Source of the DNA: Dethiobacter sp.
GTDB lineage: Bacteria; Bacillota; Dethiobacteria; Dethiobacterales; Dethiobacteraceae
Reading direction: 5' to 3'
DNA: 64,000 nt
NCBI GenBank assembly: GCA_020725465.1
Contig: DYEY01000003.1
Span: forward strand, 1 to 64,000
Shown here in pieces: positions 4,534 to 45,834 of the stretch (the first letter of the stretch is position 1; each line of letters starts with the position of its first letter). A model generated the notes under the pieces. It did not search any database. It had not been told where the DNA came from and saw nothing but the letters and a program-made list of their open reading frames with translations. The translations under genes and the position numbers were made by a program.

Positions 4534-5895
4534 ATGAAAGGTATTGTTTCCGCTGGTTTTTTCCCGCACCCGCCCATTGTGGTACCAGAGGTGGGAGGGA
4601 GAGAGGCCGGTAAGGTGGCGGCTACCGCCGCTGCCATGGACGAGCTGTCCAAACGCCTGAAGGAATCAGGGGCAAAACTGATGGCGGTCATTTCACCCCA
4701 TGGCCCGGCTTTCCGTGACGCAATAGCCATCCTGGGCACCGAGACGCTCTCCGGATCACTGGCCCGCTTCGGTGCACCCCAGGTAAACTTCAGGCTGGAG
4801 AACGACCTGGAAGCGGTCCGGGCCATCGTTTCCACAGCAAAAGCAGCCGGGCTGGAGACGCTTGTCCTTGGTGGGAAAAACGCCAAGAAATACGGCGTCC
4901 GCCCGGAACTGGACCACGGCGCGCTGGTACCCCTGTATTTCCTGGCCCGTGCCGGCGTCAGCCTGCCGCTGGTACACCTTACCTTTTCCTTCTGGCCGCC
5001 GGAGCGGCTGTACGCCTTTGGCATCGCTCTGGCCCGCGCCCTGGACTTACTGGGAAAGCCTGTGGCTATGGTGGCCAGCGGCGACCTTTCGCACCGGGTG
5101 ACCCACGATGCGCCGGGCGGTTACAGCTCGGCCGGCAAAGAATTTGACGACCTGCTGGTCCGGCTGGTGGGAGAACCGGATGTGGATGCCATTCTTAACC
5201 TGGACCCGGAACTGGTGGAGGAGGCGGGTGAGTGCGGCTACCGGTCGCTTCTGATCCTCCTTGGTGCCCTGGACGGCCGTCGTATCCGGCCTGAGGTGCT
5301 CTCTTATGAAGCGCCTTTCGGTGTCGGCTACCTGGTTGCCGATCTCTCTCCCATAGACGTTACGGGCAACAGGCAGGAGGAAGAGGAGAGCGAGCATGTA
5401 AAGCTGGCCCGGCAGGCGCTGGAAGAATTTGTGCGCACCGGCCGGGTTATCGGGGTGCCGGCGGGAACTTCCCTGGCCGGTAAAAAAGCGGGTGTTTTTG
5501 TCTCCCTCAAGTCCGGCGGGAGGCTTAGGGGCTGCATCGGTACCATTGAGCCGGTACAGGAAAACCTGGCCGAAGAAATAATAGAAAACGCCATCTCCGC
5601 CGGGTGTTATGACCCCCGCTTCCGTCCAGTCACGGCTGAAGAGTTGCCGGAACTGGTGTATTCGGTGGACGTACTCTCCGAGCCTGAGGAAGTTTCAGGG
5701 CCGGAGGAGCTGGATCCCGCCCGTTACGGCGTTATTGTACAGAGCGGGCAACGAAGGGGTTTGCTTTTACCCGCCCTGGAAGGGGTAAATACCGCGGCCG
5801 ACCAGTTGGCCATCGCCCTGCAGAAAGCCGGTATCGGCCCGGGGGAGAACTACCGCATCTTCCGCTTTACCGTGGAACGGTACCACCGGAATTAA
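4534..5895 (+). CDS. AmmeMemoRadiSam system B-A fusion (MEMO-like + AMMECR1 domains)
   Basis: 453 aa two-domain protein. Residues about 1-265 match the MEMO/class III extradiol dioxygenase (LigB-like) fold: GFFPHPPIVVPEVG near the start, ISPHGPAF, LDHGALVPLYFL and ASGDLSHR supply the metal-binding His positions. Residues about 285-453 are an AMMECR1 domain (LARQALEEFVRTGR, GVFVSLKSGGRLRGCIGTI, YDPRFRPVTAEELPEL). In many bacteria these are separate AmrB and AmrA proteins beside the radical SAM partner AmrS, which follows here after 24 bp. ATG 4534 is chosen over GTG 4510 because GGGGAGG at 4522-4528 precedes it. The biochemical role of the system is not settled in the literature I know. Confidence 0.85.
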   Translation: MKGIVSAGFFPHPPIVVPEVGGREAGKVAATAAAMDELSKRLKESGAKLMAVISPHGPAFRDAIAILGTETLSGSLARFGAPQVNFRLENDLEAVRAIVSTAKAAGLETLVLGGKNAKKYGVRPELDHGALVPLYFLARAGVSLPLVHLTFSFWPPERLYAFGIALARALDLLGKPVAMVASGDLSHRVTHDAPGGYSSAGKEFDDLLVRLVGEPDVDAILNLDPELVEEAGECGYRSLLILLGALDGRRIRPEVLSYEAPFGVGYLVADLSPIDVTGNRQEEEESEHVKLARQALEEFVRTGRVIGVPAGTSLAGKKAGVFVSLKSGGRLRGCIGTIEPVQENLAEEIIENAISAGCYDPRFRPVTAEELPELVYSVDVLSEPEEVSGPEELDPARYGVIVQSGQRRGLLLPALEGVNTAADQLAIALQKAGIGPGENYRIFRFTVERYHRN

Positions 5896-5919
5896 AGCAC
5901 ATAACGGGAGGCACCTGCT

Positions 5920-6933
5920 TTGCGTGAGGCCCTGTTCTACGAAAAAACAGAAAACGGCGTTCGCTGCCTGCTTTGCCCGCACCACTGCCGCCTGCAGCCG
6001 GGCGAAACGGGCCTCTGCCGCGTGCGCCGGGTGCACGACGGCAAACTTTATACCCTGAACTACGGCTTATGTGCCGCCATGGCCACCGACCCCATGGAAA
6101 AAAAGCCGCTTTACCATTTCCACCCGGGTGCGCTAATCTTCTCCCTGGGTACCGTGGGCTGTAACCTGGACTGCGGCTTTTGCCAGAACTGGCAGTTGGC
6201 CAGGGGAGAGAGAGCGGTAGAAGACATGCGCCTGACTCCACAACAGGTAACCGCCATCGTGGAGACTTCGTACCCCCGGCCGGCAGGGGTTGCCTATACC
6301 TACAGCGAGCCGGGTGTATGGTTTGAGTTTGTGCTGGACACAGCCCGGGAAGTTAAAGATAAAGGCTACGTCAATGTGCTGGTTACCAACGGTTACCTGG
6401 AGCAGGAGCCGCTCCGGGAACTCCTTTCTGTCATCGACGCTTTTAATATTGACGTCAAGTCGTTCACCGAAGCTTATTACCGGCAGCACTGCCGCGGCCG
6501 CCTGGACCCGGTGTTGCGCTATGTGGAGACGGCAGCCAAAGCTGCCCATGTGGAGCTGACTTACCTGGTGGTGCCGGGCCTAAACGACAGTGCAGAAGAG
6601 GTAAAGAGGTTCGCCGGCTGGGTAGCCGGCATCGACCCTGCCATACCGGTCCACCTGACCCGCTACTACCCCCAGCACCGCTTTACCCTGCCGCCCACAC
6701 CACTACCAGTACTGGAAAAACTGCACGCCGCCGCGCGGGAAAAGCTGCACCACGTCTACCTGGGCAACGTTCCGGACAGCGATTACCGGCACACCTACTG
6801 TGTCTCCTGCGGCCGACCCCTGATTTTGCGCAACGGTTACCATGTCCGCTCCCTTCTCCGGGACGGTGCCTGCCGCCACTGCGGCCGGCCAGCCGGATTT
6901 GTACACAAAACCCTGACAGATGGTTCACAATGA
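5920..6933 (+). CDS. amrS: AmmeMemoRadiSam system radical SAM enzyme
   Basis: 337 aa radical SAM protein related to pyruvate-formate-lyase activating enzymes. The cluster motif CNLDCGFC gives C81, C85 and C88. An N-terminal Cys set (C16, C19, C23, C33; CLLCPHHC) and a C-terminal zinc-ribbon-like pair (CVSCGRP, CRHCGRP near 290-325) flank the barrel. YTYSEPGVWFEF and NGYLEQEPL are family motifs. TTG start with GGGAGG 8 bases upstream. It shares an operon with the MEMO-AMMECR1 fusion and a small membrane protein. Confidence 0.85.
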   Translation: MREALFYEKTENGVRCLLCPHHCRLQPGETGLCRVRRVHDGKLYTLNYGLCAAMATDPMEKKPLYHFHPGALIFSLGTVGCNLDCGFCQNWQLARGERAVEDMRLTPQQVTAIVETSYPRPAGVAYTYSEPGVWFEFVLDTAREVKDKGYVNVLVTNGYLEQEPLRELLSVIDAFNIDVKSFTEAYYRQHCRGRLDPVLRYVETAAKAAHVELTYLVVPGLNDSAEEVKRFAGWVAGIDPAIPVHLTRYYPQHRFTLPPTPLPVLEKLHAAAREKLHHVYLGNVPDSDYRHTYCVSCGRPLILRNGYHVRSLLRDGACRHCGRPAGFVHKTLTDGSQ

Positions 6934-40400: not shown

Positions 40401-41525
40401 CTAAAAGCGGCCTTTTTCCAGGGCTATTCTCATCATCTGTTCTTTTTTGTTTTTGGGCGGGACGTGGATTTCCCGGCGCTGGCGGAAATAAATTGCTGAT
40501 TTTTGGCAGCTTCGGATACAGGCGCCGCAGCCGATGCAGCGCTTTTCGTCCAGGATGGCTTTTTTGCTTTTGGGGTTGCCGGCTTCTGTTTCCACAACAT
40601 TGAGGGCTTCAATGTGACACTTTTTGGCGCAGCGGCCGCAGCCGGTACAGGCCTCCGTATCTATGGCCACGATAAAGTTGCTGGGATGGACCGACATCCG
40701 GCTGTGGTCCTCTTTCATGCTGCGCAGGACGCCACAGCAGCAGCCGCAGCAGTGGCAGATGTAGGCCGGTCTTTTTTGCACGTTGTCGCCCAGGTGTACC
40801 AGGCCCAGTTCTTCGGTGCGCTCCAACACCCGCAGCAGGTCATCCACTGTGGCCGGGCGGGCGAAGCCGCGCCTGATCAGCCACTCCGAAGCCACGCCAA
40901 GAGAGGTGCACACGTCCTCCACCGGGGCATCGCAGGCTGTACCCAGGTGTGCTTTCTGGTGGCGGCAGTAGCACATGGCCAGGGCACCGCCGCCGGCATC
41001 GCGGATCATCTGCGAAGCTTTTTCATAGTCCAGGACCTCGGTTTCCACTTCCACCGGCATCAGGCTTTCGTAGGCCCAGGTCTGAAACATTTTGGTCTGG
41101 CCGCCGAAGAACTCTTCAGCCACCCCCTGTTCGTGGTGGTACTTTTCAAAAAGCTCCGCCAGTTCCGGCAACGGCAGGGGACCGCCGGTACGCATGAAGG
41201 TATATTCCATGAAGCCGATTACCATAGGTGAAAGCATGTAATAGGTGTTGCCGTCCCGCTGAAAGTCAACCACCAGGCCTTTCCCCGCCATGTCTTCCAG
41301 GTGGCCGAGGAGCTCCTTTTCCGAAAGCCCCGTGGCTGCGATGATCCTGTCCAGCGTGGTGATATGGAAAGGAAACTGACTGCCAATCCTGGCCTCCTCT
41401 TCGGTAAAAATAATCTGGAGTATTTGCAGGAGCGTCTCGGTTAAAGGCGCCCCCACCGGATTTTTATGCAGCCTGTGGGCCAGTGCACGGTAAACTTCTT
41501 CTTTGGCTATCCCCAGGTGACCCAA
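40401..41525 (-). CDS. winged-helix / 4Fe-4S ferredoxin-domain protein
   Basis: 374 aa, multidomain. Residues about 20-115 resemble a winged helix (LDRIIAATGLSEKELLGHLEDMAGKGLVVDF, YYMLSP). The middle holds Cys-rich CYCRHQKAHLGTAC (about 184-197) and CHCCGCCCG (about 257-265). Two 4Fe-4S motifs, CTGCGRCAKKC and CIGCGACIRSC, lie near 292-340. TTG start with GGAGGAG before it. The promoter carries the palindrome also found at marR. Probably a redox sensor or electron carrier; I know no tested function. Confidence 0.75.
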   Translation of the reverse strand: MGHLGIAKEEVYRALAHRLHKNPVGAPLTETLLQILQIIFTEEEARIGSQFPFHITTLDRIIAATGLSEKELLGHLEDMAGKGLVVDFQRDGNTYYMLSPMVIGFMEYTFMRTGGPLPLPELAELFEKYHHEQGVAEEFFGGQTKMFQTWAYESLMPVEVETEVLDYEKASQMIRDAGGGALAMCYCRHQKAHLGTACDAPVEDVCTSLGVASEWLIRRGFARPATVDDLLRVLERTEELGLVHLGDNVQKRPAYICHCCGCCCGVLRSMKEDHSRMSVHPSNFIVAIDTEACTGCGRCAKKCHIEALNVVETEAGNPKSKKAILDEKRCIGCGACIRSCQKSAIYFRQRREIHVPPKNKKEQMMRIALEKGRF

Positions 41526-41558
41526 AATATCTCCTCCCCGGTTATTTTTTAGATATTA

Positions 41559-41601
41559 TTTGTATACAAAAATTTTACTTCATAAAGCATTTTCACGTCA
41601 A
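41559..41601 (-). promoter_or_regulatory. promoter and MarR-type operator of the Fe-S protein gene
   Basis: Minus strand: TTGACG (41601-41596), 18 bases, TAAAAT (41577-41572), then the palindrome TTTGTATACAAA (41570-41559) directly downstream of the -10. Sequence and position match the operator at 43777-43788. Confidence 0.7.
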
Positions 41602-41665
41602 CCAAATATTCTGTTTGCGGAAGCGGCCAGGTAATGTAAAATCTATCTGAGGAGGTGGGACCCGG

Positions 41666-42334
41666 ATGTACGAAACCATCCTTTTTGACCTGGATGGCAC
41701 TCTGACCGACCCGGCAACGGGAATAACCAGGTCAATCCGGTACGCGTTGGCCAGGTTTGGTATCATCGAGGATGACAGTGAGAAATTAAAGAAATTTATC
41801 GGCCCGCCGCTGGTTGCCTCTTTTATCAATTATTACGATTTCAGCACTGAGCAAGCCAGGCAGGCGGTGGAATATTACCGGGTGTACTTCGGTGAAAAGG
41901 GTATATTTGAGAACACGGTTTTCCCTGGCATCACCCGCCTGCTGGATGAACTGCAAAAAGCCTGTAAGCGTCTTTTTGTGGCCACTTCCAAGCCCACCGT
42001 CTACGCCAAAAGGATAACCGACCATTTTGGCCTGACCGGCTATTTCACCGGTGTGGTGGGTAGCAACCTGGACGGCAGCCGGGTGGACAAGGCCGAAATA
42101 ATCAGGTACATCCTGCAGGAATATCCCGGTGTGGGTAAAAGCGGGACAGTGATGGTGGGTGACCGGGAGCATGATATAATCGGCGCCCGTCAAAACGGGA
42201 TTGCCGCCATTGCGGTGGCTTACGGCTATGGTACCGCGGAAGAACTGGTTTCGGCCGGGCCCGACCACCTGGCGGAATCAGTGGCGCGGTTGCAGCAACT
42301 GCTGGTACCGCACCCTTTGGAATGGGGCGAATAG
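41666..42334 (+). CDS. HAD-family phosphatase (phosphoglycolate/pyrophosphatase PpaX-like)
   Basis: 222 aa. Motif I FDLDGTLTDPATGI (residues 6-19), motif II VATSKP near 110, Lys in VYAKRI region, motif IV MVGDREHDIIGAR near 165-178. The cap is the small helical C1 type. GAGGAGGT precedes ATG. Resembles Gph/PpaX; substrate specificity not predictable. Not closely similar to the HAD protein at 21760. Confidence 0.82.
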   Translation: MYETILFDLDGTLTDPATGITRSIRYALARFGIIEDDSEKLKKFIGPPLVASFINYYDFSTEQARQAVEYYRVYFGEKGIFENTVFPGITRLLDELQKACKRLFVATSKPTVYAKRITDHFGLTGYFTGVVGSNLDGSRVDKAEIIRYILQEYPGVGKSGTVMVGDREHDIIGARQNGIAAIAVAYGYGTAEELVSAGPDHLAESVARLQQLLVPHPLEWGE

Positions 42335-42351
42335 TGTGAGAGGATTAGTTA

Positions 42352-42405
42352 TTGACATATGCTCATAATCAGTTGTATAATATAAACATAACGGGCATAT
42401 GCTCA
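42352..42405 (+). promoter_or_regulatory. promoter flanked by direct repeats upstream of the NifX-like operon
   Basis: TTGACA 42352-42357, 18 bases, TATAAT 42376-42381. CATATGCTCA occurs twice, at 42356-42365 (overlapping the -35) and 42396-42405 (start region), exactly 40 bases apart or about four helical turns. This looks like a paired operator; DUF134 encoded in the operon is a candidate binder. Confidence 0.65.
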
Positions 42406-42425
42406 ATATTAAAGGAGGTCTGCAC

Positions 42426-42824
42426 ATGATTATCGCCCTGCCCAGCAGCGACGGCAAAACTATTGAAGGCCATTTTGGCCGTGCCCGCCTTTTTGTGGTT
42501 TTTGAGACTGACAACGGAGCCATAGTAAAAAAAGAAATCCGGCACAAACTTTTCGGGCATCACCACGACGAGGACTGTCACTCCCACAGCGGCAGCGCCG
42601 GCAGCGGGCACCACAGCCACAGTCATGCCGAAGTAATTAGAACTTTGCAGAATGTGGACCTGGTGATAGCCGGCGGTCTGGGCAGAAAAATGTACGAAGA
42701 CCTGCTCTCCGCAGGTATCGTGGTCCTGGTTACCGGGGAGACCGGTTGCGAGGACGCGGTGAACAGTTTTCTGAAAGGGACCCTAACGCAGCGTCCCACC
42801 GGTGTCTGCGGCTGCGGTCACTGA
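42426..42824 (+). CDS. NifX/NifB-associated (dinitrogenase Fe-Mo cofactor type) protein with His-rich insert
   Basis: 132 aa of the MTH1175/NifX-like fold: IALPSSDGKTIEGHFGRARLFVVFE at the start and VDLVIAGGLGRKMYEDLLSAGI near 80-101. Between them is a metal-binding-like insert (HHHDEDCHSHSG, GHHSHSHAE, about 46-70) and the C-terminus ends GVCGCGH. AAAGGAGGT is 5 bases before ATG 42426. Members outside nitrogen fixation bind Fe-S or Mo clusters of unknown use; no nif genes occur here. Followed directly by DUF134 and DUF5320 genes, a recurrent trio in anaerobes. Confidence 0.82.
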   Translation: MIIALPSSDGKTIEGHFGRARLFVVFETDNGAIVKKEIRHKLFGHHHDEDCHSHSGSAGSGHHSHSHAEVIRTLQNVDLVIAGGLGRKMYEDLLSAGIVVLVTGETGCEDAVNSFLKGTLTQRPTGVCGCGH

Positions 42825-42828
42825 TTAT

Positions 42829-43236
42829 ATGCCAAGGCCACCAAAGTGCCGCAGAGTACAGTTTGAACCGCAGTTCACCTATTTCAAGCCTGCCGGTGTT
42901 CCCAAACAAGAACTGGAGGAGCTGGTGCTGTCGGTGGAAGAGATTGAGGCTATCCGCCTTAAAGACAGGGAGGGGCTGGAACAGGAGGAGTGCGCCGGCA
43001 GGATGCAGGTGTCAAGGCCCACTTTCCAGCGGATTCTCGCCGGTGCCCGCAGCAAACTGGCCGAAGCCATCATTGAAGGCAAGGCCATCAAAGTGGAAGG
43101 CGGTAACTACCGCATTGCCGCCGGCCAATTTGTCTGCAGCCGGTGCCGGGGTAGTATTGAGACTGCCTGCCAACGGGGGCGCAGGCGCAGTATGGTGTGT
43201 CCGCAGTGCGAACCCACAGCTCCCGATTCTTGCTGA
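42829..43236 (+). CDS. DUF134 family putative DNA-binding protein
   Basis: 135 aa. MPRPPKCRRVQFEPQFTYFKPAG is the family start, followed by a sigma-region-4-like helix-turn-helix (VLSVEEIEAIRLKDREGLEQEECAGRMQVSRPTFQRIL, about 38-75). The C-terminus has CSRCRG and CPQC pairs that could bind zinc or Fe-S. Start ATG lacks a clear ribosome site and lies 4 bp after the previous stop, so translation is likely coupled. Candidate regulator of its own operon. Confidence 0.82.
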   Translation: MPRPPKCRRVQFEPQFTYFKPAGVPKQELEELVLSVEEIEAIRLKDREGLEQEECAGRMQVSRPTFQRILAGARSKLAEAIIEGKAIKVEGGNYRIAAGQFVCSRCRGSIETACQRGRRRSMVCPQCEPTAPDSC

Positions 43237-43250
43237 AAGGAGGGTTTACC

Positions 43251-43463
43251 ATGCCTGGTTTTGACGGAACCGGGCCGGCGGGCGAAGGCGCAATGACCGG
43301 CTATGGCAGAGGCTTTTGTATCAGGGAACTGAAACCGGGAGACAGCCTCTACTCTGCTTTGCAGCGCCGAGGTCGCAGGTGTGTTCCCGCCGGCATGGCC
43401 CGCGGGTACCGCTGGGGCCAGCAAAGACCTGCCGCACAACCGGATAACTTCCGGGATAAGTGA
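43251..43463 (+). CDS. DUF5320 small Gly/Arg-rich protein
   Basis: 70 aa. PGFDGTGPAGEGAMTGYGRGFC is the DUF5320 signature. AAAGGAGGG precedes ATG 43251. It follows DUF134 by 14 bp. Usually found with NifX-like proteins; function unknown. Confidence 0.75.
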   Translation: MPGFDGTGPAGEGAMTGYGRGFCIRELKPGDSLYSALQRRGRRCVPAGMARGYRWGQQRPAAQPDNFRDK

Positions 43464-43472
43464 CTTTAGAAG

Positions 43473-43667
43473 TTAAAGCAGGCCGTACTTTTTTTCAGCA
43501 GCAAGATCCTGGTCACACTGGTATCAATTCTGTCCAAAGCAATCTCTCCTGACGCCACGGCAGCTGTCAGCGCCTGTAACATAAGCCAGCTGCCTTTCAT
43601 AGGTATGACAGACCAGCACAATGTCCGCCCCCGCCTCCACGGCAGCCAGGGCGGCTTCTTTTATGCC
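43473..43667 (-). pseudogene. decayed 3' fragment of beta-N-acetylhexosaminidase (NagZ, GH3)
   Basis: The 333-base gap 43464-43796 holds no intact gene. On the minus strand from 43667, GIKEAALAAVEAGADIVLVCH reads like the NagZ segment after DDLEMGAI, continues TYERQLAY, then needs a frameshift to ALTAAVASGEIALDRI and DTSVTRILLL, and a second one (a 7-A run where 8 are needed) to reach KYGLL and TAA at 43475-43473. Two frameshifts and no N-terminal half mark a remnant. Confidence 0.7.
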
Positions 43668-43746
43668 AAAAAAAGGCGCAGAAAATGGTCCGGCACCAGG
43701 TAATTTGACGCCAGGGTTGCATTGTCCTTTAAATTTTTTTATAGCG

Positions 43747-43790
43747 TTGACAGAATACGGTCAGCCAGGTAAAATGTTTGTATACAAACA
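43747..43790 (+). promoter_or_regulatory. promoter and palindromic operator of marR
   Basis: TTGACA 43747-43752, 17 bases, TAAAAT 43770-43775, then TGTTTGTATACAAACA (43775-43790), a perfect 16-base palindrome directly after the -10 and 25 bases before the start. This is a typical MarR autorepression layout. Confidence 0.8.
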
Positions 43791-43814
43791 ATTGCTATGC
43801 AAATGAGGTGGATG

Positions 43815-44321
43815 ATGGGGGAAAAGAAAAAAAGCGGTCCGGAAAGGTTTATCTGTTTCAAGCTGAGTAAGGTCATGCGCCGGATCCATCGCTACTACGA
43901 GGTGGCCCTGGCACCCTACGAAATTACCCCGGTCCAGTTCTATGTCTTAAACGCGCTGTTTGAAGCCGACGGCCAGAAGTTTAAGGACCTGGCTGAAAAC
44001 GTCTGCATGGACGGCTCAACCCTCACCGGTATCCTGGACCGGATGGAGCGGGGGGGATTTGTGGAGAGAAGGCCGGACCCCGATGACCGCCGCTCTCTCT
44101 TGATTTTCCTGACGGAAAAAGCCATCAGGCTGGGGCCGGAGATGGTGGAGAGCGCCGCCCGGCTGGACCGGGAAATAAAAGAACGGTTTGCCAGGGAGAA
44201 ATTTGCTGCTTTTATTGGCGTGCTCGACAGCCTTTTTGATGCCGGTGATTATAAAAATCAGGAGGAGAGCCAAGGTGAAAGAGAAGATCAGGGAATTTGT
44301 AACCGGTCTCGGGGTGGATGA
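43815..44321 (+). CDS. MarR-family transcriptional regulator
   Basis: 168 aa. Winged helix: YEITPVQFYVLNALFEADGQKFKDLAENVCMDGSTLTGILDRMERGGFVERRPDPDDRRSLLIFLTEKA (pieces across about 38-105) with the wing DPDDRRS. A cysteine (VCMDGS) lies in the recognition region and could serve redox sensing. Several in-frame ATGs exist; 43815 is best spaced from GAGGTGG. Overlaps the following Fe-S gene by 47 bp. Likely binds the palindrome in its own promoter and at 41559. Confidence 0.85.
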   Translation: MGEKKKSGPERFICFKLSKVMRRIHRYYEVALAPYEITPVQFYVLNALFEADGQKFKDLAENVCMDGSTLTGILDRMERGGFVERRPDPDDRRSLLIFLTEKAIRLGPEMVESAARLDREIKERFAREKFAAFIGVLDSLFDAGDYKNQEESQGEREDQGICNRSRGG

Positions 44322-45036
44322 CGTAGGTTTTGCAGCGGCGAAGGATTACCGCAGCCCGCAGTCGCCCGCCCTTGACAGCATTATGCCCGGGATAAAGTCG
44401 CTGGTGGTGATGGCCTACCGGGAACTGGACAACTGTGAGAGCGAAAATATGCAGATTGCCTTTACCGGTCGCATGGATGTGATGGAATACGCCCGCTCCT
44501 GTAATTACAGGCTGGCCCGGTTTTTAAACAGGGAACTGGGGGCTAAGGCCATGAGCGTTCCACCCTCTTACCCGCTGCACATGAGCGTGGAAACCAAGGG
44601 CATGGTGGGAGACGTCTCCCTGCGCCATGCCGCTGCTGCCGCCGGCCTTGGCGCTTTTGGCCGCAACAACCTGGTACTGCACCCCCGTTTCGGCAGCAAG
44701 GTGGTGTTTACCGCGGTACTGAGTGACCTGGAGCTGGAGAGCGACCCGCCGGCGGGAAAAGTATGCAACCAATGCAATGCCTGCGTGGAGGGCTGCCCGG
44801 CCGGGGCCCTGGCAGAAGAAGGCAAAACCCACCTTTTCCGGTGTATCAGGAACGGCCAGCCTTACGGCATCGGTGGCCATATTGAGTTCTGGAACAGGTT
44901 TGTGGACAGCCCGCCTGAGAAGCAAAAGGAGATGGTTAAGGATGTCCATTTCTGGCGCCTGTACCAGGCCGGCTTTATCGGCTTCCAGTATTTTTGTTTC
45001 AACTGCATGAAATCCTGCCCCGTGGGGCGTGCTTAG
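44275..45036 (+). CDS. 4Fe-4S protein of the epoxyqueuosine reductase-like family
   Basis: 253 aa. GVDDVGFAAAKDY and IPGIKSLVVMAYRE-type motifs (IMPGIKSLVVMAY) precede a reductase-like core, then CNQCNACVEGCPAGAL (about 163-178) and a second, atypical CFNCMKSCPVG at the C-terminus. It resembles QueG-related and anaerobic dehalogenase-type Fe-S proteins but lacks the long C-terminal HEAT region of QueG. GTG 44275 is supported by GGAGGAG at 44261-44267; the in-frame ATG at 44188 lies deep in marR. Part of the marR operon. Confidence 0.75.
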   Translation: MKEKIREFVTGLGVDDVGFAAAKDYRSPQSPALDSIMPGIKSLVVMAYRELDNCESENMQIAFTGRMDVMEYARSCNYRLARFLNRELGAKAMSVPPSYPLHMSVETKGMVGDVSLRHAAAAAGLGAFGRNNLVLHPRFGSKVVFTAVLSDLELESDPPAGKVCNQCNACVEGCPAGALAEEGKTHLFRCIRNGQPYGIGGHIEFWNRFVDSPPEKQKEMVKDVHFWRLYQAGFIGFQYFCFNCMKSCPVGRA

Positions 45037-45045
45037 GAGGCAAAC

Positions 45046-45834
45046 GTGGACACTGATAAGCTGACGGTGGAGGAGCAGGGCCATATCCTCCTGATGGGAC
45101 TGAACAGGCCCGCCAAGCTGAACGCTTTTGACGTATCAATGTACCTGGACCTGGCCCGGGCCTACGGCCGGCTGCACAGCGACCCCGCCCTGCGCTGCGG
45201 CCTGCTGTTCGCCCATGGCAGGCACTTTACGGCAGGCCTGGACCTGGCCGAATGGGCGCCGTATTTTGCGGAAGGCCGGTTTCCAAAGTTACCGGAGGGG
45301 GCTGTTGACCCTTTTGGCATCTACGGGGAACAGGTGGTGGAAAAGCCGGTGGTCATGGCGGTACAGGGGATTTGCTATACCATCGGCCTGGAGATTATGC
45401 TGGCCGCCGATGTGCGCGTGGCCGCCTCCGACACCCGCTTCGGGCAGATTGAGGTGAAACGGGGCATTTTCCCGGCGGGTGGCGCTACCATCCGCCTGCC
45501 TCAGGAAATCGGTTGGGGCAATGCCATGCGTTACCTGCTTACCGCCGATGAAATCAGCGCCGCTGAAGCCTACCGGCTGGGGCTGGTCCAGGAGGTGACA
45601 GAGCCCGGCCTGCAGTTTGACCGGGCGCTTTCCCTGGCCGGGACCATTGCCAGGCAGGCGCCGCTGGGCGTACAGGCCACGCTCCGGTCAGCCAGGCTGG
45701 CTCGCGCCGGAAAGACTTATGAGGCGGTTTCCCGCTTCCTGCCGGAAATGCAAAAGCTTCTCGCCAGCGAGGATGCCAGGGAAGGGTTGCAGTCCTTCCT
45801 GGAGCGAAGGGCGGCGGTGTTTCAGGGCAGGTAG
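45046..45834 (+). CDS. enoyl-CoA hydratase/isomerase (crotonase family)
   Basis: 262 aa. ILLMGLNRPAKLNAFDVSMYLDL at the start, HFTAGLDLAEW (first oxyanion-hole strand, about 64-74), and KPVVMAVQGICYTIGLEIMLAADVRVAA with GVxRGIFPAGG-like VKRGIFPAGGATIRLPQEIG. The classic Glu pair of enoyl hydratases is not obvious (Ile/Phe-Pro-Ala-Gly instead of the usual region), so the exact reaction is open. GTG 45046 with AGGAGG; 9 bp after the Fe-S gene, so probably in the marR operon. Confidence 0.82.
   Translation: MDTDKLTVEEQGHILLMGLNRPAKLNAFDVSMYLDLARAYGRLHSDPALRCGLLFAHGRHFTAGLDLAEWAPYFAEGRFPKLPEGAVDPFGIYGEQVVEKPVVMAVQGICYTIGLEIMLAADVRVAASDTRFGQIEVKRGIFPAGGATIRLPQEIGWGNAMRYLLTADEISAAEAYRLGLVQEVTEPGLQFDRALSLAGTIARQAPLGVQATLRSARLARAGKTYEAVSRFLPEMQKLLASEDAREGLQSFLERRAAVFQGR

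Follow-up and report, generated by a model that had tools for sequence, protein, structure and literature searches.

A predicted MarR operator shared by the marR operon and a nearby Fe-S protein gene points to a small, conserved regulon in Dethiobacter sp.

The first 64,000 nucleotides of contig DYEY01000003.1 of Dethiobacter sp. (assembly GCA_020725465.1, forward strand), hereafter the window, carry a gene for a MarR-family repressor followed by genes for a QueG-like [4Fe-4S] protein and a crotonase, the operon content claimed in the original prediction for this DNA. A gene on the opposite strand, fes, encodes a winged-helix and Fe-S protein. The relevant features are:

40401 to 41525, minus strand: fes (374 aa, TTG start), winged-helix, Cys-rich and two [4Fe-4S] ferredoxin-type parts
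41555 to 41574, minus strand: predicted MarR operator of fes, AATTTTTGTATACAAATAAT, core 41559-41570
41572 to 41601, minus strand: sigma-A promoter of fes, TTGACG-18-TAAAAT, 10/12 matches
43747 to 43775, plus strand: sigma-A promoter of marR, TTGACA-17-TAAAAT, 11/12 matches
43773 to 43792, plus strand: primary predicted MarR operator of marR, AATGTTTGTATACAAACAAT, core 43777-43788
43788 to 43807, plus strand: second, degenerate operator unit at marR, ACAATTGCTATGCAAATGAG, 15 bp downstream, 13/20 to the consensus
43815 to 44321, plus strand: marR, MarR-family repressor (PF01047, 59 bits, cutoff 24.6)
44275 to 45036, plus strand: QueG-like [4Fe-4S] protein (253 aa), overlapping the end of marR
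45046 to 45834, plus strand: crotonase/enoyl-CoA hydratase family protein, PRK06563 subfamily (NF005126, 369.5 bits, cutoff 261)

The winged-helix domain of MarR scores above its Pfam cutoff, and translation most likely starts at ATG 43815, after GAGGTGG; this start is favored because the first in-frame start, 43797, falls within the second operator unit. The crotonase likewise belongs to its subfamily by the NF005126 model. The QueG-like protein has the same core and [4Fe-4S] part as QueG and the reductive dehalogenases (57.9 bits to 5d08), but it is much shorter than QueG (253 vs 437 aa) and stays far under the curated cutoffs of both families (61.6 bits to QueG TIGR00276, cutoff 200; 46.3 bits to reductive dehalogenase TIGR02486, cutoff 160). 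In the AlphaFold2 model of Fes (pLDDT 74), a winged-helix-like part (residues ~28-107) and a Cys-rich middle precede a ferredoxin-like C-terminal 2[4Fe-4S] domain (280-353). Structure searches with this model returned no full-length fold match (Foldseek best E 0.0098, VIA Z < 8), only weak matches for the winged-helix-like and ferredoxin parts alone, the Cys-rich middle being barely covered.

The original prediction described the two Fe-S genes as distant; they are indeed separate genes, but only 2.2 kb apart. The fes-marR interval holds genes for a HAD phosphatase, a NifX/NifB-type domain protein, a DUF134 protein and a DUF5320 protein. The last three form a cluster (42399-43463) behind a perfect sigma-A promoter of their own (TTGACA-18-TATAAT, 42352-42381), in which the NifX/NifB-type Nitro_FeMo-Co domain protein has a His-rich insert. 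Between the DUF5320 gene and marR, on the minus strand (43465-43680), lies a frameshifted, degenerate remnant of a GH3/NagZ-like beta-N-acetylhexosaminidase (two successive pieces match PF00933 with E 0.026 and 0.099), which marks a past rearrangement beside marR.

As originally proposed, the palindrome TTTGTATACAAA occurs just downstream of the -10 in two promoters, at 41559-41570 and 43777-43788, and the marR copy lies inside a perfect 16-bp palindrome, TGTTTGTATACAAACA (43775-43790). Both copies are immediately 3' of a good sigma-A -10, where a repressor covering the transcription start would be expected to bind, and the two promoters do have near-identical -35 and -10 elements. A scan of the entire assembly (2,913,134 bases) found two exact copies of the 12-mer and no third, against 0.09-0.20 expected from Markov models of order 1-3 trained on the window, and the reversed control pattern gave 0 matches in the same scan; the concern that the palindrome might be frequent at random across the genome is thus allayed. 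Genome-wide, one-mismatch sites showed no excess (10 vs 12 in the control), and among TTTGTATACAAA-like sites the excess is limited to the exact pair. One-mismatch sites elsewhere in the genome are mostly intragenic, and that at 6898 lies within a radical-SAM-like coding sequence. Searches of the genome for additional regulon members gave no excess over the reversed control, either with an 18-mer or with a degenerate 20-mer (9 vs 11 at three mismatches or fewer), and the next best 20-mer sites, with two mismatches, are both intragenic. In published work, the exact 12-mer turned up only in unrelated contexts.

The same-family genomes G002 and G011 encode MarR orthologs of 55-57% identity, and each contains the exact 12-mer a single time genome-wide, immediately behind the -10 of the marR promoter. 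Ten close MarR orthologs (51-67% identity), the G002 and G011 proteins among them, came from a scan of public genomes. In the class of Desulfoscipio geothermicus (Desulfotomaculia-type), 113 genomes were surveyed and yielded 11 orthologs scoring at least 224 bits, well separated from the remainder (at most 141 bits). Of 15 close orthologs, counting that of the window, 13 carry a site with at most six mismatches to the 20-bp family consensus ATTATTTGTATACAAATAAT over the marR start site; the remaining two have one weak site (seven mismatches) and none, respectively. The window sites differ from this consensus by two (fes) and three (marR) positions, against ~8.5-8.8 mismatches for the best matches in 250-bp shuffles. 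The site upstream of marR is weak at locus L093, and no site was found upstream of marR in G042. The more distant MarR homologs of the surveyed class (at most 141 bits) showed no operator apart from weak matches. Related palindromes are found with distant MarR homologs (~40%) of Bacillus and Brevibacillus, including a perfect 36-bp palindrome in Brevibacillus panacihumi. Very long perfect palindromes related to the MarR operator, of 36 bp (L101, ~5893-5928) and 30 bp (L102, ~5900-5930), lie upstream of pairs of MarR and MFS transporter genes in Brevibacillus and Robertmurraya. Judged from these comparisons, the palindrome at 43773-43792 in the marR promoter is a lineage-conserved predicted MarR operator of the approximate form ATTATTTGTATACAAATAAT.

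Among the 113 genomes of the surveyed class, marR is followed by fes in 11/11 orthologs, with other DNA between them in G042. A second operator with at most five mismatches is present in the marR-fes gap of seven loci, to which the fes site of the window can be added, and one further locus has a weaker one (six mismatches); it is absent at three marR-fes loci (G068, G069 and G071) and at L097. No operator precedes the fes orthologs of nine genomes that lack this MarR, the best sites there (7-10 mismatches) being at the null level. In G002, which encodes both MarR and a fes ortholog, no convincing fes operator was found (best six mismatches, p ~0.055), and fes is therefore not a universal target. 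Since marR-fes linkage is conserved and most gaps hold a second operator, the window layout, with fes apart from marR under its own operator, probably arose by rearrangement of this conserved pair. At locus L130 (5900-7324), a truncated marR (69 aa) keeps its operator and precedes an intact fes; a complete marR-fes locus is present elsewhere in the same genome (that of L092, G043).

The QueG-like gene follows marR in the window and in G002. Its G011 counterpart lies away from marR and is preceded by tandem operators at -111 and -96, and in three genomes without this MarR the gene has no operator. A short QueG-like remnant in G042 (L162, 3069-3423) lies directly before fes and some distance after marR, linking all three genes. 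In Bacillus changyiensis, a crotonase 52% identical to that of the window follows MarR, with a related operator. Close orthologs of the crotonase were found in this Bacillus genome only, among 18 relatives searched, and the crotonase is therefore not a core target. A FabK/nitronate-monooxygenase-like gene follows marR in G011. Taken at the level of sequence, a regulon composed of marR, the QueG-like gene, the crotonase gene and fes is supported.

The shared MarR regulon put forward originally is thereby strengthened: the operator follows the marR ortholog, marR and fes are linked in every ortholog of the surveyed class, most of these loci have a second operator before fes, the unlinked QueG-like gene of G011 carries the operator, and none was found where this MarR is absent. 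We infer, with a probability of about 0.92, that both palindromes are operators of the MarR at 43815-44321, which would repress the marR operon and fes. A MarR dimer would sit on ATTATTTGTATACAAATAAT-like DNA just after the -10, over the transcription start, and would thereby block its own marR-queG-like-crotonase operon by autorepression and, in trans, the fes promoter 2.2 kb away. Once MarR is released, the two Fe-S proteins and the crotonase would be made together.

The original prediction placed a palindrome at each promoter and did not mention that further, overlapping units follow it. When loci are aligned on the primary site, the 20 bp that begin 15 bp further downstream have on average 12.9/20 matches, against 8.3 in shuffled flanks (z 12.9; z 12.5 in a first version of the statistic with two sites out of register), and a third unit at +30 reaches z 5.3; these scores treat related genomes as independent and so overstate their independence, although three unrelated promoters show the array. 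Indeed, downstream units recur at the marR, fes and queG-like promoters across relatives. In the window, the +15 unit has 13/20 matches at marR and 11/20 at fes, the latter nearer to background for AT-rich DNA. Palindromes overlapping at this spacing share half sites, so that neighboring dimers would lie on nearly opposite faces, suggesting that two or three dimers, the additional ones probably on the downstream units, could load on alternate faces of the DNA helix. This geometry would match that of the Mycobacterium tuberculosis MarR protein Rv2887, two dimers of which occupy 15 bp each on nearly opposite faces (PMC5526998). The Rv2887 site is GC-rich, its targets differ, and no natural three-unit array is known from the account consulted.

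Regarding the signal that releases MarR, oxidation, alkylation or sulfane sulfur acting at Cys14 (counted from Met43815) would be the most likely, at about even odds, as in the one-Cys sensors OhrR, MgrA and AbfR. All 11 aligned close orthologs share this N-terminal Cys in helix 1, and its column matches the N-terminal Cys of AbfR. The best PDB profile matches to MarR include AbfR, MgrA, OhrR and SarZ; since the PDB names are generic, the entry that we take to be AbfR was recognized from its code. The one-Cys group is defined by two Tyr contacting the Cys, at Cys+14 and Cys+25. The window MarR and all its close orthologs have the first, but Cys+25 is an invariant Pro where OhrR-type sensors have Tyr, so that MarR can be likened to OhrR, MgrA and AbfR rather than placed in their group. 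Like them, it would be a small autoregulated regulator, but in these anaerobes it would control Fe-S proteins and a crotonase instead of peroxidases or virulence genes. The Fe-S cargo of the regulon is consistent with redox sensing; nevertheless, no ohr-like peroxidase gene occurs in the regulon, and the Bacillus-type homologs mostly lack a Cys at that column, yet keep a related operator. A Cys of this kind lets MgrA and OhrR sense both reactive oxygen species and sulfane sulfur (PMC11211675).

Because of the crotonase, the main alternative signal is an acyl-CoA, or else an aromatic ligand, which would occupy the cleft of the MarR dimer, as happens in CouR, and serve as substrate for the crotonase and the Fe-S reductases; we consider this possible, at clearly worse than even odds. 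The precedent is CouR of Rhodococcus, a MarR repressor responsive to p-coumaroyl-CoA, whose box is repeated at several promoters of a small regulon including that of its own gene (PMC4737184), much as is predicted here. In contrast, the CouR box (cATTGA-5-TCAATg) lies over the -35, instead of just after the -10 as TTTGTATACAAA does in its 15-bp arrays, and the sequence match of CouR to the window MarR is weaker (50 bits). The shared operon of MarR and crotonase in the window and in Bacillus changyiensis argues for this ligand, as does the FabK/nitronate-monooxygenase-like gene of G011; against it, the crotonase has its only close ortholog in that Bacillus genome, the core targets being the Fe-S proteins. 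The redox or aromatic/CoA-linked signal of the original prediction thus has support from the invariant Cys, the Fe-S cargo and a crotonase linkage found also in Bacillus.

It is very unlikely that another dimeric regulator, such as a GntR/FadR-type protein or Fes itself, binds the palindrome and that marR is simply one of its targets. GntR/FadR-type proteins also favor GTATAC-centred palindromes, a near-match centred on GTATAC (C36:30368) is found where another regulator gene of this genome begins, which we read as GntR-type from its N-terminal sequence, and the N-terminal part of Fes is winged-helix-like. Nevertheless, the site tracks marR rather than fes: G011 has marR and the site without a close fes (best 26%), which disfavors Fes as the binding protein, and the site is missing from the nine genomes that have fes but not this MarR. 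Finally, two unrelated AT-rich palindromes lying near promoters by chance, a reading that the AT-richness of promoters and the control-level number of one-mismatch matches might recommend, can be dismissed as extremely improbable, since two exact copies compare with 0.1-0.2 expected, both are in promoters and their conservation across genera refutes it.

With both palindromes read as operators of MarR, our results describe what is very probably a real, conserved and small MarR regulon, an ordinary kind of local switch with an unusually regular operator array and uncharacterized Fe-S targets. The further idea that the 15-bp array, MarR and Fes make up a module dedicated to redox or electrophile response in strictly anaerobic Bacillota, with Fes perhaps feeding back on the switch, is speculative and rather unlikely. 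Literature searches for this regulon found no published description, and the literature searched describes nothing for this MarR subfamily of anaerobic Bacillota, for which a concrete operator and regulon can now be proposed. A single signal would link an uncharacterized, widely conserved Fe-S/winged-helix protein with a QueG-like protein, and the 15-bp array may offer a clean test case for cooperative loading of MarR proteins on DNA.
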